A stretch of 37,783 nucleotides of DNA, from positions 1 to 37,783 of the forward strand of contig JAUWMQ010000011.1 of the NCBI GenBank assembly GCA_030613065.1, given 5' to 3'. This DNA comes from Candidatus Aegiribacteria sp. GTDB taxonomy: Bacteria > Fermentibacterota > Fermentibacteria > Fermentibacterales > JCC-6. A program made the position numbers and the translations under genes. The first letter of the stretch is position 1; each line of letters starts with the position of its first letter. Below the pieces are notes generated by a model. That model was not told the origin of the DNA and searched no databases. It worked only from the letters and a program-made list of their open reading frames with translations. Of the stretch, positions 19,210-37,783 are shown piece by piece.

Positions 19210-20021
19210 GGCATAACCTCTGCCATCTTAATGAAGCTTTCAGGGGACAGCTGTTCTGCCCGAAGGCAGGGGTCAATATCGGATAGCGCAAGGAGCTGCA
19301 GAGCCCCGTCCTTCCCCAGAAGCGGTTTAAGGTTATTGAAAATGGTTTTCCTCCTCATAGCAAACGAAACTTTTACAATCTTTCTGAATCTAACGTACAA
19401 CTCTTCTGAAATCAGTGGGCTGCTGCGGCGATTCAGAACAACTACCCTCGAGAGAACTCTTGGCTCCGGAAAAAAATCCTCCGCAGAAGCATCAATAAGA
19501 TTCTCTACAGTGAATACCGGCCAGATCTGCAATGAAAGCTTACCGTAATCCCTGCCGCCGTCAAGTGTTGCTAATCTGATGGCTACTTCCCTCTGAAGCA
19601 TGAGGACTGCTTTCTGAACATGCCTGAAACTGTGTTCGATCATTCTGAAAACAATTGGAGAGGAAATGTAATAGGGAAGGTTACCGACAACGGTCCTGAA
19701 TGGGTAGCCGGGCAATTCTGAAGGATCAACATCAAGAATATCGCCCTGGATAACGTTCAAATGCTCATCCTTGAACCTTTGTCGGAGGAACGATGCCATT
19801 CTGTCTGACAGCTCCACCACAGAGAGTAATTCGGATCGAGGAAGAAGCTTTTCCGTCAGAGAACCGAATCCGGGTCCTATTTCCAGAACACTGCCTCGCC
19901 CGGGTATTTCTGCCGCAATTCTCGATGCTATGGAAGAATTGAGTAGAAAGTTCTGTCCAAGTCTCCTGTTCGGATAAAGTCCGGTTCTATTCAGATACCT
20001 TCTCAGCTCTGTTATCAGCAT
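19206..20021 (-). CDS. rsmA: 16S rRNA (A1518/A1519) dimethyltransferase
   Basis: This is RsmA/KsgA, 271 residues, which dimethylates two adjacent adenines in the terminal hairpin of 16S rRNA late in small-subunit assembly. Motifs in order: LGQNFL at 21-26, VLEIGPGFGSLTEKLL at 45-60, VIQGDILD near 90-97, and the catalytic VGNLPYYISS at 112-121. The C-terminal domain follows with FAMRRKTIFNNL. Length is normal. The ATG at 20021 shares its A with the preceding TAA stop (TAATG) and has AGAGG upstream. Position directly after tatD matches the tatD-(rnmV)-ksgA order of many bacteria; rnmV is missing here. Confidence 0.95.
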   Translation of the reverse strand: MLITELRRYLNRTGLYPNRRLGQNFLLNSSIASRIAAEIPGRGSVLEIGPGFGSLTEKLLPRSELLSVVELSDRMASFLRQRFKDEHLNVIQGDILDVDPSELPGYPFRTVVGNLPYYISSPIVFRMIEHSFRHVQKAVLMLQREVAIRLATLDGGRDYGKLSLQIWPVFTVENLIDASAEDFFPEPRVLSRVVVLNRRSSPLISEELYVRFRKIVKVSFAMRRKTIFNNLKPLLGKDGALQLLALSDIDPCLRAEQLSPESFIKMAEVMP

Positions 20022-21394
20022 TATCCTCTTATCCGAAAAGGCAGACTGAGACTCTTCGCCAGTTTCTTCACCGATTCAATTGGAACGCCCGGATATCTTA
20101 CAGCTGTGAGTCTGATGGAAGCAACCCTTCGCGCCAGTTCAATGAACTCCATCATCCTGTCCCATGAGGTTTCATCGGCAGGGCGGCAGATATCGTTGTA
20201 CTCTTCTCTGCAGGAAGCGTTCAGGCTGACACTTACAGTATCAAAGGGTTCGAGAATCTCCGCGGTTTTCTCAGGTGACAGCCTCGCGAGACAGGTCCCG
20301 TTTGTATTCAATCTCACAGAAAACCCTCTGTCGGAAGCACTTCCAGCAAGCCTTCTGAGAAGTTCGGGTCTCATTGTCGGTTCACCGTATCCGCAGAAAA
20401 CGAGTTCTTTTCCTGTCTGAGGACTGAGTGTCTTGATAATGGAATCCAGTCTTTCTTCTGAAGGCTCTCCATGATGCTTCAGGTAGTAACCTCCTATGCC
20501 ATCCGTTCTGCTCTTAACGCAGAACCTGCATTTATTAGTGCACGTTCCGGTAATATTCATATAGATATTTCCGTACAGCAAGTACACCAGGTCTGTCCGG
20601 CGATTGGGTCCAAGCTGCATGGCTTTCAGGGAATTCTTCATAAGTGTTCCGGCGGTATCGAACGGACTCCTGCCCCATATTTCTGAAATAGTATCGGCTA
20701 TATACTTAACATTGCAGGGTTCATTCCTTCTCCCTCTGACTGGTTCGGGAGACAAATAGGGAGCATCCGTTTCGATCAGAATCCTGTCAGCTGGAAGCGA
20801 TCCGGCCAGATCTCTCAGTCGGTGGTTCTTACTGAAAGTAAGTACACCGGCGAATCCTATGAAGTAACCTCTGTCAACAGCCTCACGCGCGATGTCTGCA
20901 GGCCCCGTATAGCAATGCATGATAACCGGGACGGTAACATCATGACCCATAATATCAAGAATCTTCCTCTCTGCGCTCCTGGAATGAACGATAAGAGTCA
21001 ATCCAAAAGTTTCCGCCAGTTTGATATGCTCTTTAAAAACCTTGATCTGCAGTTTTTCAGGAACTCTGTCACGATAGAGATCCAGCCCTGTCTCTCCCAC
21101 AGCAATTACCCGGGGACGGAGAAGAATTTCAGGTATTTCATCGGGACTGCATGAAGAATCAGAATCCAGTTCGTTTGGATGAATTCCCGCCGCAGCGTAA
21201 ACGCCGGTTCGTGTTTCTGATAGTAAAGCCGCCTTCAGGCTGCTTTCCAGTGATATGCCGGGAACCATGAATTGTGTCACACCGGAATCCTCTGCAGAGG
21301 CAAGCACCCTGTCGAGATCGCCGCTGAACCGCTCATCAAAGAGGTGGCAGTGGGTATCAAACAGCTCAAACCCGGTGGTTACGCTCTCCAGATC
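20021..21394 (-). CDS. TatD-family hydrolase fused to a TatD-associated radical SAM domain
   Basis: One frame joins two enzymes. The first ~270 residues are a TatD metal-dependent DNase: FDTHCHLFD, GIHPNEL, VGETGLDLYRD, LIVHSRSAE, IMHCYTG and IETDAPYLSPEP, giving the full metal-ligand set. The remaining ~180 residues are a compact radical SAM domain with the cluster motif CTNKCRFC, then FCGYGEPTMRPELL and LNTNGTC, resembling the stand-alone TatD-linked radical SAM family. The start is uncertain. No ATG, GTG or TTG lies near the TatD start; I use CTG at 21394 (GAGAGG seven bases upstream). An ATG at 21499 would overlap purA by 121 bases with non-TatD sequence. The radical SAM substrate is unknown. 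Confidence 0.85.
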   Translation of the reverse strand, partial: DLESVTTGFELFDTHCHLFDERFSGDLDRVLASAEDSGVTQFMVPGISLESSLKAALLSETRTGVYAAAGIHPNELDSDSSCSPDEIPEILLRPRVIAVGETGLDLYRDRVPEKLQIKVFKEHIKLAETFGLTLIVHSRSAERKILDIMGHDVTVPVIMHCYTGPADIAREAVDRGYFIGFAGVLTFSKNHRLRDLAGSLPADRILIETDAPYLSPEPVRGRRNEPCNVKYIADTISEIWGRSPFDTAGTLMKNSLKAMQLGPNRRTDLVYLLYGNIYMNITGTCTNKCRFCVKSRTDGIGGYYLKHHGEPSEERLDSIIKTLSPQTGKELVFCGYGEPTMRPELLRRLAGSASDRGFSVRLNTNGTCLARLSPEKTAEILEPFDTVSVSLNASCREEYNDICRPADETSWDRMMEFIELARRVASIRLTAVRYPGVPIESVKKLAKSLSLPFRIRG

Positions 21395-22653
21395 AGATCC
21401 TCTCTGGCGGGTCCAGTCGAAATAGCTCTGATCGGAACATCTGTGAGTTTCTCTAAGTACAGGACGTAATTCCTGGCATTTTCCGGGAGTGCATCCCATT
21501 CCCGCTCTCCCCTGATATCCTCATCCCAGCCGGGGAGTGTTTCATAAACGGGAATGTGTTTACCGAGCCTTACCCCTGTTTCAAAGAGCGTCAGATCAAT
21601 CTCCGGGTCAAGTTCGTACTTCTTGCATACTTTCAGTTCAGGAATGCCGCTGAGGACATCAAGGAGAGTAACCGCTGTCCAGGTACAGCCGTTTATCCTG
21701 GCGGTATAGTTCGCCAGCACAGCATCGAACCATCCGCACCTGCGGGGTCTTCCGGTGGTAGCTCCATACTCATTGCCCTGTTCCCTTATCCTGTCTCCCA
21801 GAGAATCGGTCAGCTCTGTTGGGAACGGACCGTTCCCGACTCTGGTGGCGTAAGCCTTCATGACCCCCACCACTTCGTCAATCAGAAGCGGGCCTATACC
21901 GAGACTGACGCAGGCCGCCCCTGCTACGCAGGAACAGCATGTAACAAAGGGGTATGTTCCGTGATCAGGATCAAGAAGAGATCCCTGTGCGCCCTCAGCA
22001 AGAATAGAACCTTCGGATGCCAGTATTCGGGCGATTACCATGGATACATCCGTCGCGCGATCAACAAGGCTGATGGACTCACGGTTGAATATATCGACCT
22101 CTTCCCTGAGGGAGTCGGCAAGTTCCGCCGAAAGAGAAAGCTGTTCTATGCATTCATCAGTGATGGCTGCGGATCTTTCAAGAAATACCTCAGGCACCGC
22201 TGCATCTTCAAGCCTGATCCCCTTTCGCATGAATTTGCGTACATAGGTAGGACCTATCCCGCGCCCTGTTGTTCCGACTGCAGCTTTTCCAAGCTTCATC
22301 TCGCTGGTGTTCTCGATATATCTGCCTGCCGGATGAACAAGGTGTACCTTTCCGGATATCGAAAGCCTTTCATCAACGGAGATACCTTCTTTCTCCATTA
22401 ATTCCATTTCCTGTGATAGAGCAATCGGATCGAGAACACAGGCAGATCCAATGATACCGAGTATATCCGGCCGTACCAATCCGCTGGGAAGCTGGTGCAG
22501 TGCAATCCTGTGCCCATCTGCTTCAATTGTGTGTCCCGCATTGGCTCCACCGGAAAACCTCGCGACTGCATCGACGGTTTCAGCAAGATGATCCACCATC
22601 TTCCCTTTGCCTTCATCGCCCCATTGAAGTCCGATAACTATGGTTGCTGGCAT
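21379..22653 (-). CDS. purA: Adenylosuccinate synthetase
   Basis: PurA, 424 residues, makes adenylosuccinate from IMP, aspartate and GTP in the first committed step of AMP synthesis. The catalytic GTP-binding loop QWGDEGKGK lies at residues 10-18 and NAGHTI, with the catalytic His, at ~38-43. TTGRGIGPTYVRK, EGAQGSLLDPDHGTYPFVT and TTGRPRRCGWFD follow in normal order, and length is normal. I chose the ATG at 22653, preceded by GGAAGGA; an extra 20 upstream residues in frame do not fit the family. It lies 35 bases downstream of engB in the ribosome/protein-quality run. Confidence 0.96.
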   Translation of the reverse strand: MPATIVIGLQWGDEGKGKMVDHLAETVDAVARFSGGANAGHTIEADGHRIALHQLPSGLVRPDILGIIGSACVLDPIALSQEMELMEKEGISVDERLSISGKVHLVHPAGRYIENTSEMKLGKAAVGTTGRGIGPTYVRKFMRKGIRLEDAAVPEVFLERSAAITDECIEQLSLSAELADSLREEVDIFNRESISLVDRATDVSMVIARILASEGSILAEGAQGSLLDPDHGTYPFVTCCSCVAGAACVSLGIGPLLIDEVVGVMKAYATRVGNGPFPTELTDSLGDRIREQGNEYGATTGRPRRCGWFDAVLANYTARINGCTWTAVTLLDVLSGIPELKVCKKYELDPEIDLTLFETGVRLGKHIPVYETLPGWDEDIRGEREWDALPENARNYVLYLEKLTDVPIRAISTGPAREDLIWRA

Positions 22654-27866: not shown

Positions 27867-29054
27867 TCATCTGAATCCAAGAGGTGACCAGGTGGGGCAG
27901 TAGCTGTCACCACCATCGGACAGTTTTCTAATTGTAAGTTCATTGAGTTCTATAACATATACGGCTCTTTCTCCGCCGCTATCACTGCTGAAAGCTATAT
28001 GTCTTCCGGTCGGCCCCCACACAGGATCTTCGTTAAGAGACCCCTGGAAAGTAACCTGGCGGATATTGGTGCCGTCAGCATCCATAACGAATATATGGAA
28101 ATCCCTGCCGGCCTGGGCGGTATACGCAATTCTGTCGCCGTCCGGTGACCATGCGGGGCTGTCGCAGTAACCGTGAGAGCTTGTAGCTCTGTTGGCTGTA
28201 CCTCCCGCACTGTCCATTATATAGAGTTGAGGGTAGCCCAGCCTGTCACTTGTAAAAACTAACTGCCTGCCGGTCGGCGAGAAACTTGCCGATGTCTCAA
28301 TTGATCCTCTGAGCGTCAGACGGGTCGTTTCTTCGGTGTCGGGATCGAGAAGGTAAATGTCAACATTTCCATTCAATGAGAGTGTCAGTGCTATTGTCTC
28401 ACCACCGGGACTCCATGCTGGAGAGGAATTCAGACCAGGCATACTGAGTATCTTCTCAGCCCGGGATTCCGAAAAGCTATAGCACCAGAGGTCGCCATTC
28501 CCCGATCTGAATGACGTGAATACTATTCTGTCGCCATCGGGAGACCAGGCCGGTGTGGTTAAAACCTCTTCATCGGACATCACGTTCCTGGAACTCCTCG
28601 GGTCCTGTGACTTTACAGCAAGTGCGTAACCTGACGAAGTTCTTGTTACATAGGCGATCCAGGTGGAGGCGATGCCCTCCTCACCTGTCAGGTCAAAGAC
28701 AAGATCATCCGCAAAGGCATGCACCAGCGAATAGATATTCTCTCCGGAATAGTTTCTTGCAAGAAGGGGTTCTCCTCCGGATGTAACCTCCGCGCGGAGT
28801 TCAATTCCATTCAGGGAGCGTGTTACTTCAACAACTGCTTCCGCATATCCTTCGTCAGATGTGATCAGCAATCCGGAGAAGTCGATATCCTCCCTGAGCT
28901 GATTCAATACTGTATCAACCAGATCTCTGTCCCCCACAACACTCACCTTAACTGGAATACACTCCGCACTGACAGGAGTCATGGGGATAAAACTGTCAGG
29001 AGAGGAAGGACCCGCGATAATAAGAAGGAGAATCACAATATATGGAATTTTCAA
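27867..29054 (-). CDS. tolB: Tol-Pal system beta-propeller protein TolB
   Basis: TolB is the periplasmic hub that contacts Pal and TolA; here about 395 residues. A signal peptide comes first (KIPYIVILLLIIAGPSSP). A small N-terminal alpha/beta domain ends with a weakly conserved segment. A beta-propeller follows with repeated PAWSPDGDRIVFTS, PAWSPGGETIALT, FSPTGRQLVFTSDR and PAWSPDGDRIAYTA blades. I prefer TTG at 29054 (CGGAG seven bases upstream, one base after the previous stop) over TTG at 29081, which lacks a ribosome site and adds a polar leader. Confidence 0.93.
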   Translation of the reverse strand: MKIPYIVILLLIIAGPSSPDSFIPMTPVSAECIPVKVSVVGDRDLVDTVLNQLREDIDFSGLLITSDEGYAEAVVEVTRSLNGIELRAEVTSGGEPLLARNYSGENIYSLVHAFADDLVFDLTGEEGIASTWIAYVTRTSSGYALAVKSQDPRSSRNVMSDEEVLTTPAWSPDGDRIVFTSFRSGNGDLWCYSFSESRAEKILSMPGLNSSPAWSPGGETIALTLSLNGNVDIYLLDPDTEETTRLTLRGSIETSASFSPTGRQLVFTSDRLGYPQLYIMDSAGGTANRATSSHGYCDSPAWSPDGDRIAYTAQAGRDFHIFVMDADGTNIRQVTFQGSLNEDPVWGPTGRHIAFSSDSGGERAVYVIELNELTIRKLSDGGDSYCPTWSPLGFR

Positions 29055-29055
29055 T

Positions 29056-29685
29056 TTAATGCTCCGGTCCGACGAATTCAATGTTTATCACTGCAGAGCT
29101 GCTTCGGCCAGGTGGCATTGGAGGTATCTGTGCCATTGCAAGGGCGGTCTCCACAGCTCTATCAAAGGCTGAAGTGCCGCTCTTTCTGATAACTTCAATA
29201 CTCTCGGTGCCATCAGGATTAACGGTCAGGATTATCCTGTATGATCTTTCAGGTTCTACAGATGTTCTGTATTCTCTTCTTACAGCATTAAATACTCTTG
29301 ATTCGTAGGTTCCCGGTCCGGGAGCGCCTGCGCCTGCCGATCCCTCTCCGCTGACAGAGGCAAACTCTTCCTGAATCTCCTCGATCTCTTCAGGAATTAC
29401 CTCTTCCTGAATCTCCTCGATCTCTTCAGGAATTACCGTTTCGATCTCCTCCTGAATTTCCGCAGGAAAGGTTTCCTCAACGGGAGAGACTTCTTCAGCA
29501 GAAGCTGCCGTTACCATAGTTACCATTATGGCATCATCGCCTCCAGTGGGAGTTTGGGCACTGCTTGAGAAACTGACCAGCCCGACCGCCAGAATTAGCA
29601 GATGCCCCGCACCGGCAAGTATGTAATCAAGCCTGCGGGTTGAATATCTGCCTGAATCGCGCTCATCGGTATCAGTGAATCTCAC
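29056..29685 (-). CDS. TolA/TonB-like energy-transducing protein
   Basis: This 209-residue protein fills the tolA slot. A short cytosolic leader precedes one transmembrane helix (LAGAGHLLILAVGLVSF). A linker of about 60 residues rich in Glu/Ile/Pro contains an exact 12-residue duplication. The last ~85 residues are a TonB-type C-terminal domain (RVFNAVRREYRTSVE, then YRIILTVNPDGTESIEVIRKSGTSAFDRAVETALA). E. coli TolA is about twice as long with a rigid helix, so this short version should span the periplasm only as an extended chain. The start is GTG, overlapping the tolR end by 14 bases. It could also serve TonB-dependent transport, but the position argues for Tol. Confidence 0.85.
   Translation of the reverse strand: MRFTDTDERDSGRYSTRRLDYILAGAGHLLILAVGLVSFSSSAQTPTGGDDAIMVTMVTAASAEEVSPVEETFPAEIQEEIETVIPEEIEEIQEEVIPEEIEEIQEEFASVSGEGSAGAGAPGPGTYESRVFNAVRREYRTSVEPERSYRIILTVNPDGTESIEVIRKSGTSAFDRAVETALAMAQIPPMPPGRSSSAVINIEFVGPEH
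29365..29436. repeat. Exact 36-base tandem duplication in the TolA-like linker
   Basis: Two identical 36-base units (29365-29400 and 29401-29436) encode two copies of a 12-residue Glu/Ile-rich unit containing PEEIEEIQEE. A degenerate third unit follows. The period is a multiple of three, so copy-number change would alter linker length without a frameshift. Confidence 0.85.
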
Positions 29686-30094
29686 TGTTGCCCGCCCCGC
29701 TTTCCTGGATTAGTCCGACATTCAGATAGCCACTGCTGCCCAGTTTCGTAAGAGCATTGGCTACCACTTCATATCTCACATCACGGTCAGCCCTTACAAA
29801 GGCTTCCGATCTGCCTGAGGAGTACGCCGCTTCCGCCAGAGCCCTCAAATCTTCCATCAGAACCATTTCGCCGGAAACGGACAGATTACCGTATGCGTCT
29901 ATTTCGAGAATAAGCGATTCCAAAGGATCAAGGTTATTAATTATTCTTCCCTCATTTGATGAAGGGGGAGATACATCCGCGCTTCTCTGCATAACGGGGG
30001 AGGTCAGCATGAATATCACGAGAAGAACAAGGGTTACATCCACCAGGTTGGTGATATTGATTACGGAAAACTGTTTGTACCTGGTCTTGATCAT
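29672..30094 (-). CDS. tolR: TolR/ExbD-family inner-membrane protein
   Basis: This 140-residue ExbD/TolR protein belongs to the proton-driven TolQ-TolR motor. The cytosolic leader precedes the single helix NLVDVTLVLLVIFMLTSPVM, whose Asp is the proton-carrying residue. The periplasmic part contains SEAFVRADRDVRYEVVANAL and ends with GYLNVGLIQE. I chose the ATG at 30094, which overlaps the tolQ stop as ATGA; a start seven codons upstream is possible. Order tolQ-tolR-tolA-tolB-pal-cpoB is complete here. Confidence 0.93.
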   Translation of the reverse strand: MIKTRYKQFSVINITNLVDVTLVLLVIFMLTSPVMQRSADVSPPSSNEGRIINNLDPLESLILEIDAYGNLSVSGEMVLMEDLRALAEAAYSSGRSEAFVRADRDVRYEVVANALTKLGSSGYLNVGLIQESGAGNSEIH

Positions 30095-30759
30095 TCCAGG
30101 CTTCCCCTTCTGCATACATCCACAAGTTCGGAAAGAAATCTGTCCATGTCCCCGGCCAGCGAATTTAACCTTCCGACTACGAAGTTATGGAAGATATTGG
30201 CAGGTATGGCCGCGAGAAGCCCGGCGACAGTAGTTGTAAGCGCGGCTGCAATGCCTGCTCCAACCGCACTGAGGTCGGCTACTCCCAGTTCCTTCATGCC
30301 GATGAAACTTGTGAGTATTCCCCATACGGTTCCAAGCAGCCCAAGGAGGGGTGCTACACTTGTTACTGTGGCAAGCAGACCGATATTCCGTTCACGCTGA
30401 GCCAGGTCTTCCCCCGCCTCACGTTCAAGAGCGCTTGTCAGGCTGCTTACTTCCGGAGCTGAAAGAGGTTCAGTGACACCTCTGTCAAGCCTTCTCTGAA
30501 GAAACCTTCCAGCCTCGGCGTACATTCTGGCAAGAGGGCCTACTTCGCTGCTTCTGCTCCAGAAATCCCCACCCGGCGCTCTTCCTGTTGTTCTTAGCGC
30601 ATTCATGAACGTTCTGGAAGAACCCAGTATGGTCTTGAATTCACGGATCTTCGCAATGGCTACAGCCCAGGATCCTATGGAAAGAACAGCAATAATTATA
30701 AGTATGAGTTTCGTTACGATATCGGCCCGGACAACTATTTCGAATACCTGTCCAATCAA
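30091..30759 (-). CDS. tolQ: TolQ/ExbB/MotA-family proton channel
   Basis: TolQ, 222 residues, has three membrane helices: the first at VTKLILIIIAVLSIGSWAVA, then the conserved pair ATVTSVAPLLGLLGTVWGIL and AGIAAALTTTVAGLLAAIPA. The Gly/Thr-rich helix faces contact the TolR Asp. The cytosolic loop after helix one is normal in size. The start is TTG, preceded by GGGGG seven bases away, and it overlaps the ridA stop by four bases (TTGA), so tolQ translation is coupled to ridA. Confidence 0.94.
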   Translation of the reverse strand: MIGQVFEIVVRADIVTKLILIIIAVLSIGSWAVAIAKIREFKTILGSSRTFMNALRTTGRAPGGDFWSRSSEVGPLARMYAEAGRFLQRRLDRGVTEPLSAPEVSSLTSALEREAGEDLAQRERNIGLLATVTSVAPLLGLLGTVWGILTSFIGMKELGVADLSAVGAGIAAALTTTVAGLLAAIPANIFHNFVVGRLNSLAGDMDRFLSELVDVCRRGSLE

Positions 30760-31145
30760 GAATTTTCCCCCTTTACTTCTGCAATGGCATCCATTTCAAT
30801 CAATGCGCCCAGAGGCAGTGCAGCCACCTGGAGAGTTGACCTCGCAGGATACGGCGGCTGGAACCTGCATGAATATATTCTGTTCACGAAATCAAACTCA
30901 GCCATGTCGGTAATATACAGATTCATCCTGATAACCCTGTTCATCCCTGAACCGGCCTCAATGAGTATCTGTTCAAGATTGTTCAGAACCTGCTCGGTCT
31001 GGCCGGACAAACCTTCGACAAGCCTTCCCGATTCAGGGCATATCCCTATCTGCCCCGCTGTGAACACCAGCCCGGCGGTTACCACAGCCTGACTGTAGGC
31101 TCCCACCGGCAGAGGAGCGGAATCGGTTTCTACCGTTTCAAACAT
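30756..31145 (-). CDS. ridA: RidA-family enamine/imine deaminase
   Basis: RidA, 129 residues, hydrolyses reactive 2-aminoacrylate and related imines released by PLP enzymes. Family marks are PVGAYSQAVVTAGLVFTAGQIG, MNLYITDMAEFDFVN, then PARSTLQVAALPLGALIEMDAIA, where the Arg is the substrate-binding residue. I prefer the ATG at 31145 (AGGA eight bases upstream) to the GTG at 31151. It heads the Tol operon, an unusual neighbour that may reflect only a shared promoter. Confidence 0.93.
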   Translation of the reverse strand: MFETVETDSAPLPVGAYSQAVVTAGLVFTAGQIGICPESGRLVEGLSGQTEQVLNNLEQILIEAGSGMNRVIRMNLYITDMAEFDFVNRIYSCRFQPPYPARSTLQVAALPLGALIEMDAIAEVKGENS

Positions 31146-31577
31146 CTTCACATTCCTGTCATAATAGGTACATCAGTAATATATACATTCAAATGGAAGA
31201 TTCTGTTCCATCGCTTTATTTCCGACAGAAAATTTTTGCAGAATCTTGCGGGATGTCTGGGAATGATGTCCATCCAGAATTTCGATCTTGACGCGGAACG
31301 GGGGAGAGAAATATCTACGTCGAAATTCTTCACATTCAGTTCTATGATTTCGATAAAAACGTAAGTCGGCAGAAATCCAAGGCTGTACGTGATTTTTCGA
31401 GAACTCATGGTGTGTATATCCTTCAAATCTCAAATGCATACCCTCTCAATATCCGGTGATGCTAGATTGTCAATTCTGGGAGGCATCAGACTGAATGAAT
31501 GAAAGTACGCTTTGTAATTCATGCTTCACAGAAGTTCACCCGTAAGTACGCGCTAACTTTTTTTCCGGTGAAATCCC
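31146..31577. other. Divergent intergenic region without a supported gene
   Basis: About 430 bases separate ridA from the divergent ATP-grasp operon. A minus-strand open frame (31148-31426) has no family resemblance and only a distant ribosome-site-like AAGGA, so I do not call it. TTTCGAT-type stretches recur (near 31282, 31321 and 31346), but not as a clean repeat. Promoters for both directions should lie here. Confidence 0.4.
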
Positions 31578-31586
31578 TGTTATACT
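31578..31586 (+). promoter_or_regulatory. Extended -10 promoter of the ATP-grasp operon
   Basis: TGTTATACT provides the TG extension plus a TATACT -10 box, with no good -35. Transcription would begin near 31593, about 30 bases before the ATG at 31625, whose ribosome site is AAAGGA eight bases upstream. Confidence 0.45.
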
Positions 31587-31624
31587 TTTGGTCTGTCTGG
31601 CACGAACATGAAAGGATAGAGGGA

Positions 31625-33313
31625 ATGGAAAACATTCCAGATATGGAATTCTACGGTGACAGCAGGATCGGAGGAAAAGCAGCAGGCCTGGTGAGTATAA
31701 TTGACGGCCTGCGCAATCGCGGGAGCAACTTATCATTTCCCCTGCATGTTTCCGTGCCGGAATTTTCGGTAATAACTACTGAATTCTTCCTGGACTTTGT
31801 TCAACGCAACGATCTTATGCCCTATGCTGATGGGAATGAGCCCGACGACAGGATTGCCATGGCTTTTATCAGGGGAGAGATGTCGCCGAGGCTGACAGGA
31901 GAACTCTGGAAGTTCGTAGGCAAAGCTCACGAACCTATTGCGGTAAGGTCTTCCAGCCTTCTGGAAGATGACCTGAAGTCTCCTCTGGCTGGCATCTATC
32001 AGACAAAAATGATCCCGAATAATCAGCCATCGGACGAGATGCGGTTCAGAAAGCTGATTGAAGCTGTCAAGCTGGTGTGGGCCAGTACGTACTTCAGCGA
32101 TTCCCGGGAATTTCATAGCGGAATAGGCGGTTCTGCCTCCGAAGAAACAATGGCTGTAATCCTTCAGAAGATAGTCGGAAGGAGATACGGCAACAGGTTC
32201 TATCCGGTGATATCGGGTGTGGCGCGCTCGTTCAATTACTATGCTTTCGGAAGGGCTAAACCATCCGATGGAGTAGTGAATCTGGCCCTTGGCCTGGGCA
32301 AGAGCATCGTTGATGGAGAGTTATGCTGGAGCTACAGCCCGGCCACTCCCAAGGCACCTCCTCCATTTGGTTCAATCGGAGAGATGCTCAAAGGAACCCA
32401 GAGCAGTTTCTGGGCTGTAAACATGGAGAAGATCGCTGTTTACGATCCGGTGCAGGAAACCGAGTATATGGTCTCATCCCGGCTGGAAGATGCTGATTAC
32501 GACGATACACTCAAATTCGTGGCATCAACATATTTACCTGAATCTGACAGACTTGTTCACGGAACGGGTAGAGAAGGGCCGAAAGTGCTTAACTTCGCCC
32601 CGATCCTTGATGACCGGATCATCCCCCTCAATGATGCAGTGCTTGCTGTTCTTGATCTATGCTCAGAAGAAGCGAATGGCCCCGTAGAAATTGAATTCGC
32701 TGTCAGTGGACCCTGGCAATCGGAAGACGCGTCACTGGGGCTGCTCCAGGTCAGACCCATAGCAGCATTCAGTGAAGAAGTGGATATTTCTGAAGCAGAT
32801 CTTAAGGGGGAAAGAACTGTGGCCTGCTCCCGCCACGCTCTGGGAAACGGCATAACGGAAGTACAGTACGTTGTTTACGTTAAACCAGAGTCTTTCAGCA
32901 CATCAAAGACCAGGCAGATAGCAACGGAGATCGCGGATATTAACAGAAAGCTCTCAAAGGAAAATCACGGATACCTACTGATCGGCTACGGACGCTGGGG
33001 AAGCTCCGACCCATGGCTCGGAATACCGGTAACCTGGGGGCACATCTCCTGCGCAAAGGCAATGATTGAAATCTCGGGACCCAGAATGCGGGTAGAACTC
33101 AGTCAGGGGTCACATTTCTTCCATAACCTCTCCAGTTTCGGTGTGGGTTACCTTTCGGTAAGCGAACCGCTTGACGGTCCGGTTAACCTGGACATTATCA
33201 GCGCTGGAAGTGAAACTGTACATGAGACCGAGCATGTCAAATGCCTGAAGATACCAGATGGAATAAGTGTAAGGATTGACGGCAGGAAAGGACTGGGTGT
33301 GGTACTCAAATGA
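31625..33313 (+). CDS. PEP synthase/PPDK-type ATP-grasp protein without PEP domains
   Basis: The product is 562 residues. Residues ~14-130 carry PPDK N-terminal (ATP-binding) motifs: IGGKAAGL at 15-22 and IAVRSSSLLEDDLKSPLAGIYQT at 105-127. VEIEFAVSG at 354-362 and LLQVRPIA at 373-380 close the ATP-grasp fold. The phospho-His domain (GGxTSHAA) and the PEP/pyruvate barrel of true PEP synthase are absent. The C-terminal ~150 residues hold a module shared with the next gene: IGYGRWGSSDPWLGIPVTWG at 453-472 and LSQGSHFFHNL at 492-502. The enzyme probably uses ATP to phosphorylate something, but the acceptor is unknown. The chosen ATG at 31625 marks where homology starts; upstream in-frame codons overlap the promoter. 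Confidence 0.8.
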   Translation: MENIPDMEFYGDSRIGGKAAGLVSIIDGLRNRGSNLSFPLHVSVPEFSVITTEFFLDFVQRNDLMPYADGNEPDDRIAMAFIRGEMSPRLTGELWKFVGKAHEPIAVRSSSLLEDDLKSPLAGIYQTKMIPNNQPSDEMRFRKLIEAVKLVWASTYFSDSREFHSGIGGSASEETMAVILQKIVGRRYGNRFYPVISGVARSFNYYAFGRAKPSDGVVNLALGLGKSIVDGELCWSYSPATPKAPPPFGSIGEMLKGTQSSFWAVNMEKIAVYDPVQETEYMVSSRLEDADYDDTLKFVASTYLPESDRLVHGTGREGPKVLNFAPILDDRIIPLNDAVLAVLDLCSEEANGPVEIEFAVSGPWQSEDASLGLLQVRPIAAFSEEVDISEADLKGERTVACSRHALGNGITEVQYVVYVKPESFSTSKTRQIATEIADINRKLSKENHGYLLIGYGRWGSSDPWLGIPVTWGHISCAKAMIEISGPRMRVELSQGSHFFHNLSSFGVGYLSVSEPLDGPVNLDIISAGSETVHETEHVKCLKIPDGISVRIDGRKGLGVVLK

Positions 33314-36300
33314 CTGACGGAGGAATGGATTCTCACAAACTGCTGAACTCCCTCCGGGAGAGAGCGAAGGAACTTAACTGCCTGTACATGGCTGACGAAA
33401 TTCTGATGAGTGATGTACCCCTGGAGAGAAAACTCCAGGCGGTTGCGGAATCTATGCCCCAGGGCTTGTACAGTCCTGAGCACTGCAAAGCCAGGATAGT
33501 CTACAAGAACAAAGAGTATACATCAATAGCTTACTGTGAGGGTGGACCTGAACTCTCGGAAAATCTGGTTATCAACGGCAGCATCGTCGGAAAAATATCT
33601 GTTTCCTATCCCGGTAAAGTACCCGAACTGGACAAGGGTATCGCCTTCCTTGAAGAAGAAGAAAAGCTTATAAGAACACTGGCCAGAAGAGTAAGCCATA
33701 CCATTCTTCATGACAGCCTATCCCAGATGTTCGAAGAGGAGGATGGCGATCAGTCCGACCTGCGAGGCGGGTCCGAATCCTGGAGAGCCATCCTGGATAT
33801 GCTTCTCATTACCGACAGGAAACTCTACCAGACGCTTTCAAGAAGACTTCTGAATTATATGAGCTTCGTAGGTATAACTGATGCCACAGCCCTTCTGAAC
33901 CGATGGGCCGTCCAGACTTCCACTAAGGATACCGATCTTGATCATCAGGGTATAAACCAGCCTATACCAAGGCAGGAGTTCGAAATCAACTACGAACTTG
34001 TAGAAGAGATATTTGCTATCGCAGGCAGGGATTTGAGCAATGAGCAGATACTCAACCTGCTTCAGAGGTGGATCGGTGAGAACAGGATAGAACATCTTAT
34101 CAACGTACTGGATGACCACTCCAGCTCTCTTACCGAAATCATACAGGCCATGGACAACCACAGGGGAATTGTAAGTGAGGAAGCAACCCTTTCCAAACCG
34201 GTTCTGAATGCTCTAAAAGTATCTCTCATAAGAAGACTGGTAAGCAGAAGGCTTGATTATATAAGCCGCCTTAAGGAATTGATCTCAATCGAAGATTTCT
34301 ACGAACTGACGAATTCCCTCATTTTTCCTGTCAGAAGCCACGGTCAGCTTGGAGGGAAGGGCGCGGGTCTGTTCATGGCTGAAAAAATAATCAAGAATGC
34401 AGGGAGTGATGATCCTCTACTCGCCGGTATCAAAACACCCGCCACATGGTATGTATGCAGTGATGGAATACTTGATTTCGTTCATCACAACCGTCTTGAA
34501 GAACTCCTTGAATACAGATACAGGTATCTTGGTGAAATAAGGCTGGAGTACCCGAACCTGATCCAGCTGTTCAAGAACTGCGCTTTCAGCCCCGAAATGA
34601 CACAGGGACTGTCCATGACCCTTGATTCGATCGGTGATTACCCCCTGATAGTGCGAAGCTCAAGTCTGCTGGAGGACAGCATAGAGGCGGCCTTCAGCGG
34701 GAAATACAAGAGTCTGTTCATCGCTAATCAGGGTACGAAAAGCGAACGGCTGGATGCGCTGTTGGATGCCATTGCCGAAGTGTACGCCTCCATGTTCGGC
34801 CCCGACCCCATCGAGTACAGGAACGAGCGGAATCTCCTGGATTTCCAGGAGGAGATGGGTATCCTGATCCAGCAGGTGGTGGGCACCAGGGTCGGAAGAT
34901 ATTACTTTCCCGCCTACGGCGGGGTCGCTTTCAGCAGGAATGAATTCCGGTGGTCCGCAAGGATCAGGACAAAGGACGGATTATTACGACTTGTACCTGG
35001 GCTGGGAACCCGTGCTGTGGACAGACTGGGTGATGATTTTCCGGTGCTGGCGGCACCGGGACAGCCAGGGCTCAGGGTAAACACCAGTGTAGATGAAACA
35101 ATAAGGTATGCTCCTAAATTCATGGATGTGATCAATCTGGAAGAAGGGCGGATTGAAACTGTGAAGGTAGAGGATATTATCAGGGAATACGGATCCCTGT
35201 ATCCTCAGGTGGCAAATATATTCTCTTCCTGCAAAGATGGAATGATAAGACGGATCAACAAACTCACGGATTTTGAGAATGAGTACGTAATCCCCACCTT
35301 TGAGGGGCTGATGAGCCCGGAAACAGGTTTTCTCAAAATGATGAGGTACGTTCTTGTGCTTCTGGAAAGGGAATGTGGTTTCCCTGTGGATATAGAGTTC
35401 GCCGCCGATGGAGATAATATCTACCTGCTCCAGTGCAGAGCTCAGAGCTCCTGGGAGCAGAGTGAAGCCGTGCATCTTAAGGAACGGCCGGAACCGGATG
35501 CCATACTCTTTACCGCTGATAAGTACGTCTCAGACGGATTCATCTCCGATATTACGCATATTGTCTACGTGGATCCTCAGGAGTACGACAATATGAAGGA
35601 AATGCAGGATCTTGTATCTGTTGGAAAAACCATTGGCAGGCTGAATGGTATCCTTGCAAAGAAGAGTTTTGTCCTTATGGGACCGGGAAGATGGGGCAGC
35701 CGCGGTGATGTAAAACTTGGTGTACAGGTAACTTACTCCGATATCAACAATACTGCGGCTCTCATAGAGATGGCTTTTCAGAAGGGAAGCTACGTGCCGG
35801 ATCTCTCCTTCGGAACACATTTCTTTCAGGATCTTGTTGAGGCGGGAATCAGGTATCTGCCTCTTTATCCTGATGACAGTAATGTCATTTTCAACAGAGA
35901 ATTCTTTGAAAAGAGCGATAATGTCCTGTGTCAACTCCTGCCGGACTGTACTGATCTAAGCCATGTGGTGAATGTGATTGATGTTAAGGCAAGCACTGGA
36001 GGCAGGATTCTGAGAATAGCGATGAGTGGAGACGAGGGTGAAGCCATTGCATATCTTGCATCCACTGATGATTCCATCCAGGAAGAATCTGACCGGCTCC
36101 CCCATTCCCGTTTAACCACAGCTTCCAATCCTGATGAACACTGGTTGTGGAGACAGCGAATGGCTGAAACCCTGGCTTCGGAGATAGATCCGGATCAATA
36201 CGGGATCAAGGGCATCTATCTCTTCGGAAGCACTAAGAACGCAACTGCTGGCCCATGCAGTGATATAGATCTTTTGATTCATACAGACGGAGACGACAGA

Positions 36301-36513
36301 GCCCTGGAGCTGCTGGAATCCTACCTCAACGGATGGGATGTCTGTCTGTGTGAAATAAACTACATTAGAACCGGCTTCAAGACGGAACACATTCTTGATG
36401 TACACATTATCACAGACAGGGACATTAAGGAGAAACAGTCCTACGCTATCAAGATAGGTTCCGTGGCTGATCCTGCCCGCCCGATGGAAATGAAGAAGAA
36501 GAAGAAGAACTAG
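33310..36513 (+). CDS. Multidomain sensor / PPDK-type ATP-grasp / nucleotidyltransferase protein
   Basis: The product is 1067 residues. Residues ~25-140 resemble the GAF-like input domain of some histidine kinases (CKARIVYKNKEY, then VINGSIVGKISVSYPG and FLEEEEKLIRTLARRVSHTI), but no kinase core follows. A helical region spans ~150-335. The ATP-grasp domain runs ~340-712: LGGKGAGLFMAE, LIVRSSSLLEDSIEAAFSGKY, VDIEFAADG, YLLQCRA. The GRWGS/HFF module lies at ~788-850 (LMGPGRWGSRGDVKLGVQVT, LSFGTHFFQDL). Residues ~960-1035 hold a pol-beta-type nucleotidyltransferase motif: LFGS at 971-974 and SDIDLLI with acidic residues 985/987. PEP domains are missing. The ATG overlaps the upstream stop (ATGA). 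The C-terminus ends in five lysines. A regulatory phosphotransfer or nucleotidylation role is an inference. Confidence 0.8.
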   Translation: MTDGGMDSHKLLNSLRERAKELNCLYMADEILMSDVPLERKLQAVAESMPQGLYSPEHCKARIVYKNKEYTSIAYCEGGPELSENLVINGSIVGKISVSYPGKVPELDKGIAFLEEEEKLIRTLARRVSHTILHDSLSQMFEEEDGDQSDLRGGSESWRAILDMLLITDRKLYQTLSRRLLNYMSFVGITDATALLNRWAVQTSTKDTDLDHQGINQPIPRQEFEINYELVEEIFAIAGRDLSNEQILNLLQRWIGENRIEHLINVLDDHSSSLTEIIQAMDNHRGIVSEEATLSKPVLNALKVSLIRRLVSRRLDYISRLKELISIEDFYELTNSLIFPVRSHGQLGGKGAGLFMAEKIIKNAGSDDPLLAGIKTPATWYVCSDGILDFVHHNRLEELLEYRYRYLGEIRLEYPNLIQLFKNCAFSPEMTQGLSMTLDSIGDYPLIVRSSSLLEDSIEAAFSGKYKSLFIANQGTKSERLDALLDAIAEVYASMFGPDPIEYRNERNLLDFQEEMGILIQQVVGTRVGRYYFPAYGGVAFSRNEFRWSARIRTKDGLLRLVPGLGTRAVDRLGDDFPVLAAPGQPGLRVNTSVDETIRYAPKFMDVINLEEGRIETVKVEDIIREYGSLYPQVANIFSSCKDGMIRRINKLTDFENEYVIPTFEGLMSPETGFLKMMRYVLVLLERECGFPVDIEFAADGDNIYLLQCRAQSSWEQSEAVHLKERPEPDAILFTADKYVSDGFISDITHIVYVDPQEYDNMKEMQDLVSVGKTIGRLNGILAKKSFVLMGPGRWGSRGDVKLGVQVTYSDINNTAALIEMAFQKGSYVPDLSFGTHFFQDLVEAGIRYLPLYPDDSNVIFNREFFEKSDNVLCQLLPDCTDLSHVVNVIDVKASTGGRILRIAMSGDEGEAIAYLASTDDSIQEESDRLPHSRLTTASNPDEHWLWRQRMAETLASEIDPDQYGIKGIYLFGSTKNATAGPCSDIDLLIHTDGDDRALELLESYLNGWDVCLCEINYIRTGFKTEHILDVHIITDRDIKEKQSYAIKIGSVADPARPMEMKKKKKN

Positions 36514-37370
36514 AGGAGCTCCCTCGATGCCGATTCGGGATTATCCGGATCGAACCTGATGAGAGCCAGTTCCGGGCCGTCGTGAGCCGCGTTGAACATT
36601 ACTGTTCTGCCTTCTCTGTCCATCCATTTACCGGTGATCCTTGAGGATTCATGTATATGCCCGTGAAGGGTGATCAGGGGTTGTTTTTTCTCTATAAGCC
36701 TTTGGATTGCGATACTCCCCACATGGACATCAAGGGGAGCGTGATCGATCTTCATGTTGTCCAGAGCAGCTCTGTCCAGATTCGTCCTGTAAGGCGGAGA
36801 ATGAAACAGCATTATGGCCTTTGAAAGATCGTCTCCATCGGTAAGTACCTCAAGGTCATCCCTGATGGTGGAATAACGCATTTCATATTCCGATACCCGA
36901 ACAGTGTGAATACCATCCTCAGGATGAATGCACCCTGGATCAACGTATCGGGACACGTCGTATTTCTCCCAGTCCTTCAGTCTGAACGGTGACGGAGGCA
37001 CAAAGGAATAGCCGTAAATCTGATATGACTCCATGCTGATTTTCCGGTTATGACAGTAATGCCACAGTCCGCGTTCCTGAGCATCAAGTATTGCGGCCTC
37101 CTCAAAGCGTCCATCATCGTTTCCAAGTATCAGGAATATCTCAGGATAGGTTATCCGCGGGTCCTCCATAATACAAGTGAGTTCCCGAGCGAGAAAACCG
37201 CTCACGAAATCATTATTAAGGAAATCCGGTGAAAAGATCTGAACCGCCCCCGGAAGGAGGTCACCTCCCAGAAATACCGCATCGGGTTCCTCTTCCCTTA
37301 TCACCCGGAAAAGTTCTCCGTAACGACTGGTTCTTCCATGCAGGTCCGAGCAGAATAAACAATGTGGCAT
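36510..37370 (-). CDS. Calcineurin-like metallophosphoesterase
   Basis: This predicted cytosolic phosphoesterase has 286 residues. Metal-ligand motifs appear in order: CSDLHGRTSRY at the N-terminus, LGGDLLPG, LGNDDGRFEE (GND in place of the usual GNH), LFHSPPYRT and LHGHIHESSR. Loss of that His may alter the second-metal chemistry or leaving-group protonation. I chose the ATG at 37370 because the family begins there; the upstream frame runs through a terminator. No strong ribosome site is visible. It is a single gene on the minus strand, and its stop shares CTAG with the convergent operon end. The substrate is unknown. Confidence 0.82.
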   Translation of the reverse strand: MPHCLFCSDLHGRTSRYGELFRVIREEEPDAVFLGGDLLPGAVQIFSPDFLNNDFVSGFLARELTCIMEDPRITYPEIFLILGNDDGRFEEAAILDAQERGLWHYCHNRKISMESYQIYGYSFVPPSPFRLKDWEKYDVSRYVDPGCIHPEDGIHTVRVSEYEMRYSTIRDDLEVLTDGDDLSKAIMLFHSPPYRTNLDRAALDNMKIDHAPLDVHVGSIAIQRLIEKKQPLITLHGHIHESSRITGKWMDREGRTVMFNAAHDGPELALIRFDPDNPESASRELL

Positions 37371-37380
37371 ATTGACTGAT

Positions 37381-37415
37381 AAATAAAATAAAGGCGCCTG
37401 ATGTAAACAGGCGCC
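37381..37415 (-). terminator. Intrinsic terminator of the dehydrogenase gene
   Basis: A perfect 8-base GC-rich stem (37393-37400 with 37408-37415, GGCGCCTG/CAGGCGCC) surrounds a 7-base loop. On the minus strand it is followed by TTTATTTTATTT. It begins 23 bases after the dehydrogenase stop codon and is the clearest terminator in the window. Confidence 0.9.
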
Positions 37416-37437
37416 CTGCTTCGTTATTAGAGAGAGA

Positions 37438-37783
37438 CTAGATCCAGCCCCTGGCCCTGCACGCATCAACTACCTTGCTTACGCTGATCAGGTAGGCTGC
37501 GTCACGCATGTAGAGTTTGTTCTTTGAGGCAAGATCACTGACGGCAACAAACGCCTCAGTCATCTTCTGGTCAAGTTTGCCCAGTGCTTCATCCTTAGTC
37601 CAGTAGTAGTTCATGTTGTTCTGAACCTGTTCAAAATATGAACATGTTACCCCGCCTGCATTGGCAAGAAAATCGGGTATATCGAAGATACCTTTCTCCT
37701 CAATGATCTTGTCCGCCTCGGGGGTAGTAGGACCATTGGCTCCTTCACCGATGATCTTCACCCTGTTGCTTATCCTGTCGGCA
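37438..37783 (-). CDS. Glutamate (Glu/Leu/Phe/Val-family) dehydrogenase, C-terminal part
   Basis: This is the 3' part of a gene cut by the window edge; about 115 codons are visible. [40 protein letters not shown] and [17 protein letters not shown] are classic for the NAD(P)-binding domain and C-terminus of glutamate dehydrogenase and amino-acid dehydrogenase relatives. The Gly-Ala-Asn-Gly-Pro-Thr and SYFEW-like (here SYFEQ) motifs favour GdhA/RocG-type glutamate dehydrogenase, which interconverts glutamate and 2-oxoglutarate. Cofactor preference cannot be read from this fragment. A strong intrinsic terminator follows. Confidence 0.92.

Follow-up and report, generated by a model that had tools for sequence, protein, structure and literature searches.

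The 37,783 nucleotides of DNA analysed here (hereafter the window) make up the entire contig C148 of a genome of 2.8 Mb, the nearest named relatives of which are Candidatus Fermentibacteria and Aegiribacteria MAGs. Close to its end lie two overlapping genes, here called A and B, each encoding an ATP-grasp domain followed by a conserved module, together with a metallophosphoesterase gene and the truncated end of a glutamate dehydrogenase (GDH) gene of the subtype here called GDH1 (Table 1). The product of B comprises, in this order, a GAF-type sensor domain, a helical region, the PPDK_N ATP-grasp domain, the GRWGS/GxHFF module and a nucleotidyltransferase, and its AlphaFold model has a mean pLDDT of 80.9.

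Table 1. Features at the end of the window, with positions counted from its first nucleotide.
Feature	Positions	Strand	Remarks
Gene A (SHORT)	31625..33313	+	~562 aa from the most likely start; PPDK_N ATP-grasp and GRWGS/GxHFF module
Gene A, ATP-grasp (PF01326)	31664..32785	+	K60, R150, E397/E399, Q417, R419 kept
Gene A, GRWGS...GxHFF module	32801..33310	+	residues 435-604; invariant H539, codon 33113-33115
Gene B (LONG)	33310..36513	+	1067 aa; overlaps gene A by ATGA
Gene B, GAF-type sensor domain	33331..33759	+	residues 8-150
Gene B, ATP-grasp (PF01326)	34345..35484	+	residues 346-725; K350, R449, D694, E696, Q708, R710
Gene B, GRWGS...GTHFF module	35479..36075	+	residues 724-922; invariant H837, codon 35818-35820
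Gene B, pol-beta/MNT-type nucleotidyltransferase	36133..36459	+	residues 942-1050; G973, S974, D985, D987, D1030
Metallophosphoesterase (PF00149)	36510..37370	-	tail-to-tail with gene B; ORF open to 37469
Intrinsic-terminator-like hairpin	37391..37417	-	just after GDH1; consensus match only
Glutamate dehydrogenase GDH1, C-terminal part	37438..37782	-	cut by contig end

Both reading frames had been described in an original prediction made from the letters of the window, and all the motifs named there (GGK, VRSSSLLED, DIEF/EIEF, LLQxR, GRWGS, GxHFF and LFGS...SDIDLL) are indeed present. The start of A, placed by that prediction at 31578, had to be corrected. The ORF is open from the ATG at 31499, and the most likely start is 31625, because most of the close relatives begin at M43 and GGATAGAGGGA is found upstream of this codon. 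Since B is kept at 42-90% identity over nine phyla (homology search), what is observed for the two genes goes far beyond chance.

Two other features of the window were recorded in passing. A Tol-Pal-like cluster (27867-31151, minus strand), recognised from translations read by eye, encodes a TolB-like beta-propeller and TolA/TonB-, TolR- and TolQ-like proteins, and a single ORF (20021-21499, minus strand) fuses a TatD-type DNase domain to a radical SAM domain (PF01026 and PF04055).

ATP-grasp domains and the module that follows them

Both proteins exceed the 27-bit cut-off of the ATP-grasp domain PPDK_N (PF01326), A scoring 109 bits and B 170 bits. PPDK_N is the sole Pfam match in A, and is accompanied in B by NTP_transf_2/Polbeta. 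Residues K350, R449, D694, E696, Q708 and R710 of B are kept in every row covering them of a 34-protein alignment, and A likewise retains the ATP-grasp residue set; judged by these residues, neither site is degenerate, and the ATP-grasp active sites of both proteins are intact. When the model of B was compared with the PDB by Foldseek, its ATP-grasp domain matched rifampin phosphotransferase (5hv3, E 1.5e-14), PEP synthase, HpeI (9goj) and PPDK.

The other canonical parts of a PEP synthase or PPDK are missing, as had been predicted. The swivelling phosphohistidine domain with its GGxTSHAA motif (PF00391, Pfam) is found neither in A, B and the 34 B-type proteins, nor in 75 sequences of the module described below, and there is no PEP/pyruvate barrel (PF02896) in A, B or the 34 B-type relatives. 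HisKA and HATPase domains are also absent from A and B (Pfam). The two genes are not the halves of an ordinary split PEP synthase, because PF00391 is found in just two proteins of the genome, one of the size of PtsI (611 aa, contig C125) and an ordinary PPDK (contig C39), both encoded on other contigs; next door to A and B in this genome there is no PF00391 gene.

With PEP synthase and PPDK, A and B share the PF01326 ATP-grasp domain with its catalytic residues and, directly after it, a C-terminal partner domain with one invariant His; unlike them, they have neither PF00391 nor the PEP barrel, B carries a fused sensor and nucleotidyltransferase, and the genes lie beside GDH. The closest solved ATP-grasp fold is that of rifampin phosphotransferase, which like HpeHI, CreHI and PpsAB is a dikinase devoid of the PEP barrel (PMC4844700, PMC12167813). 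However, rifampin phosphotransferase and HpeHI require the swivelling domain (PMC4844700, PMC12167813), whereas A and B have no such domain in cis or next door and no substrate-binding domain, and their neighbours are different. The rifampin phosphotransferase family model NF041857 gives 26 bits, below its cut-off of 999. By their defining features, A and B are not PEP synthase, PPDK, rifampin phosphotransferase or a split dikinase, since no swivelling domain is present in cis or encoded next door.

Where PEP synthase and PPDK have the swivelling domain, directly C-terminal of the ATP-grasp domain, a stretch of about 170 residues is common to A, B and a third paralogue and includes the motifs GRWGS and G[ST]HFF. 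The modules of A and B align with an hhalign probability of 99.7%, and 12 positions, including the His of GxHFF, are invariant among 75 diverged module sequences. The module is modelled confidently (pLDDT 95.5, pTM 0.92). No Pfam family recognises it, and neither an hmmsearch of PDB sequences with the module profile nor a Foldseek search of PDB folds with this model returned a significant match.

The identity of the module with a diverged swivelling His domain was considered and not adopted. By eye, strands and helices follow one another in a similar order in the two domains, and the His opens a helix that comes after a turn containing Gly, as it does in GGxTSHAA, but hhalign, hmmsearch and Foldseek give no support: neither hhalign nor Foldseek significantly related the module to the phosphohistidine domain. 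The highest TM-scores among the listed Foldseek matches, about 0.3, were to PA and Cpn60 structures, which have the same SCOP swivelling beta/beta/alpha fold, and are too weak to count. Nevertheless, an internal phosphohistidine on the module His is possible, because the module sits in the position of the swivelling domain and contains one invariant His. The original claim that the phosphate acceptor must be something other than the His domain was right as to the absence of the canonical domain, and incomplete in that the module carries an invariant His of its own.

Sensor domains, nucleotidyltransferase and paralogues

The N-terminus of B was matched by Foldseek to the GAF domain of NifA (probability 1.00), and PF01590 matches one relative of B among the 34 B-type proteins scanned. 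A counterpart of residues 1-150 also precedes a histidine kinase (C150) and forms part of a GGDEF-type protein (C18) of this genome; this stretch is therefore a shared input domain. A sensor domain had been anticipated; its type, given as histidine-kinase-style, is better described as GAF.

At the other end of B, residues 964-1021 match NTP_transf_2/Polbeta (Pfam). Residues G973/S974, D985, D987 and D1030 constitute the GS...DxD motif and the third carboxylate, and the three Asp residues are invariant in 24/24 nucleotidyltransferase-bearing rows. In Foldseek the C-terminus of the model matches HEPN-MNT nucleotidyltransferases; the predicted nucleotidyltransferase has, therefore, both the pol-beta motifs and the fold. 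No match to GlnE or GlnD family models was found in A or B (Pfam, NCBIfam, E 1).

The best family matches of this domain are MntA antitoxins and PDC-S09, and with the MntA/HepT type VII toxin-antitoxin system it shares the minimal MNT-type fold and the GS...DxD motif. It could be argued from these matches and from the HEPN-MNT structures that the domain is part of a toxin-antitoxin-like MNT system that has simply been fused to an ATP-grasp protein. We regard this as very improbable: the curated MntA model scores 25.7 bits, below its cut-off of 60, the domain is fused to an enzyme of 940 aa, no HEPN partner was recognised, and the conserved partners are GDH, A and the phosphoesterase, no second small gene being common to the loci. 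A toxin-antitoxin or defence system was likewise rejected for the locus, the MNT matches being weak.

The input domain is not the same in all relatives. The third paralogue in this genome (L002:196-3192, G000:C150) consists of two receiver-like stretches, DUF5752, PPDK_N and the GRWGS module; PF00072 gives 27.8 bits, with a cut-off of 30.2, and the second receiver-like stretch, recognised only by eye, seems to keep its Asp. This gene is convergent with the other GDH of the genome, near NfnA/NfnB-like genes. A large and diverged class of 870 aa (L167-L189) begins with a stretch that resembles, by eye, a degenerate RecA/KaiC domain (STGLxxLDxVIxGLRxGDNVVWQ). GAF, receiver-like and RecA/KaiC-like inputs thus interchange on the same core, which favours a role in signalling or modification. 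It is a mark of regulators that different inputs can be exchanged on a conserved catalytic core next to a single target enzyme. Accordingly, the two-component-like signalling or modification system originally proposed keeps its general direction, while the description of the two proteins as orphans does not (see below).

These observations also bear on a metabolic reading, namely that the ATP-grasp domain and the module together phosphorylate a small molecule of glutamate/2-oxoglutarate metabolism, and that the genes adjoin GDH on account of a shared pathway. The characterised PPDK_N relatives compared (PEP synthase, rifampin phosphotransferase, HpeHI) all phosphorylate small molecules (PMC4844700, PMC12167813), and the ATP-grasp catalytic residues are intact. 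However, a barrel is missing, no substrate domain can be recognised, and the exchangeable inputs and the nucleotidyltransferase found on the same core are typical of regulators, so that such an enzyme appears rather unlikely.

Linkage to glutamate dehydrogenase

Loci were collected by searching for homologues of B alone or of a paralogue, and genes with at least 40% identity were classed as B-type (n = 52). GDH was found by tblastn within 2 kb of 43 of these 52 genes; five of the nine others are at contig ends, and in two of the remaining four the distance to GDH is 2.2 and 5 kb. By a rough reckoning (two to three GDH genes in 3 Mb), less than 1% would be expected to be adjacent by chance. When neighbours were clustered for relatives collected by homology to B alone, GDH was present in 23 loci and the next commonest neighbour in nine. 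The tabulation of neighbours proposed with the original prediction has thus been run for the relatives of B, and its outstanding result is GDH. The loci span Fermentibacterota, Aminicenantota, Bacillota, Ignavibacteriota, Acidobacteriota, Deltaproteobacteria/Myxococcota, Planctomycetota, Riflebacteria and a Thermoplasmatales archaeon (homology search).

Co-occurrence gives the same picture. Of 385 genomes, 51 contain the GDH1 subtype (at least 59% identity), 55 contain B and 49 contain both (Fisher p 1e-52, kinship ignored); counted by taxonomic family, GDH1 is in 16 and B in 17 out of 248, and 15 are shared (p 5e-21). The link of A and B to GDH is therefore strong, and the proteins are not orphans: their partner is GDH.

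The genome under study has just two GDH genes, and the module occurs in it exactly three times, every copy beside a GDH. The GDH1 gene is split, its C-terminal part ending the window and its N-terminal part ending contig C102, and these two ends probably join. In two relatives (L193 and L194), a region of no more than 16 kb contains both GDHs together with the B-type gene, the receiver-type paralogue and a glutamine synthetase. The B-type gene of Syntrophothermus UBA1445 is broken up into three ORFs (L065:1518-4652), perhaps as a decayed copy or through assembly errors. Among the paralogues, 15/32 genes of the receiver class and 6/18 of the 870-aa class adjoin GDH within 2 kb; since only these do, the core may act on further targets as well, and the 870-aa class may be one that serves them.

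In four loci of Aminicenantes (L062, L064, L066 and L067), the ATP-grasp domain and the module lie beside GDH while the GAF domain, the nucleotidyltransferase, A and the phosphoesterase are all missing. It is because of this persistence that the ATP-grasp domain and the module are considered the core, onto which the nucleotidyltransferase, A and the phosphoesterase are added as layers. Gene A is present only together with a nucleotidyltransferase-bearing B (24/24), and the metallophosphoesterase is found in 20 of the 24 loci with A and in none of the 28 without it. On a tree of the core, the nucleotidyltransferase label changes three times, A nine times and the phosphoesterase ten times. In independent supported pairs, A and the phosphoesterase move the same way in 3/3 of those that differ, which is too few for significance; the correlation between the two rests on few independent events.

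The strong link to GDH, which holds for forms lacking the nucleotidyltransferase as well, would also suit a non-covalent energy sensor, in which the ATP-grasp domain binds ATP, ADP or AMP and the protein binds GDH and alters its activity with no phosphotransfer, the nucleotidyltransferase being the sole enzyme where present. This possibility is in line with the fact that no acceptor domain is recognisable by profile or fold, but the invariance of the ATP-grasp Lys, Arg, acidic and Gln residues and of the module His goes beyond the needs of simple binding, and we consider this possibility distinctly improbable.

A putative modification system for glutamate dehydrogenase

GDH sits at the meeting point of carbon and nitrogen metabolism. 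Glutamine synthetase is a well-known case of dedicated covalent control, whereas we know of no comparably widespread dedicated modifying enzyme for bacterial GDH. Starting from the observed anatomy, the intact sites and the GDH linkage, we infer the target, the reaction, its direction and the signal as follows: A and B would form a signal-controlled covalent-modification system for GDH, a reading to which we give about an even chance. It should be noted that the linkage could also reflect a shared pathway, which argues against GDH as the target.

In such a system, the GAF domain of B would sense a metabolic or redox signal and set the activity. The ATP-grasp domain would use ATP to phosphorylate the invariant His of the GRWGS/GxHFF module, the latter acting as a stand-in for the swivelling domain, and the phosphoryl group would then be handed on, either to GDH itself or to a ligand that GDH carries. 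The nucleotidyltransferase would put a nucleotide on GDH (or on A), as GlnE does on glutamine synthetase, and the metallophosphoesterase, a candidate eraser, would take the tag off. The mark on GDH might thus be a phosphate delivered by the ATP-grasp core, a nucleotide delivered by the nucleotidyltransferase, or both.

The functional analogy is with GlnE and GlnD, in that a sensor-linked nucleotidyltransferase lies beside a central enzyme of ammonia assimilation and a phosphoesterase is linked to it. Unlike GlnE and GlnD, the target would be GDH, an ATP-grasp core is added and the candidate eraser is a calcineurin-type phosphoesterase; with no family match, A and B are not members of these families, but may work like them. 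SelO, a pseudokinase-fold AMPylase, is unrelated to the nucleotidyltransferase of B. The chemistry has a precedent nonetheless, because mammalian GDH is AMPylated by SelO and is less active for it (PMC12375108), an instance of a nucleotidylated, inhibited GDH.

If A and B do modify GDH, this would account for a large group of proteins that at present carry no label other than PEP/pyruvate-binding, would assign a role to a conserved module of no known structure, and would mean that a PPDK-type ATP-grasp domain serves regulation, not metabolism. A more specific version, which we hold to be doubtful, is that of a new class of phosphotransfer in signal transduction, in which the ATP-grasp domain would autophosphorylate the module His under GAF, receiver or RecA/KaiC-like input and relay the phosphate to GDH, with the nucleotidyltransferase and the metallophosphoesterase providing a second, reversible mark. 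In at least nine phyla, GDH would then be under a control resembling that by GlnE and GlnD, with an ATP-grasp domain acting as a protein kinase. No published work on the A/B family was found in a search of openly accessible journal papers.

As to GDH itself, the linked GDH1 subtype has fixed residues His154, Cys126, Trp244 and Trp293 (L048 numbering), which are mostly missing in other GDHs; in the comparison with a contrast set of nine sequences, these emerge as possible contact or modification sites.
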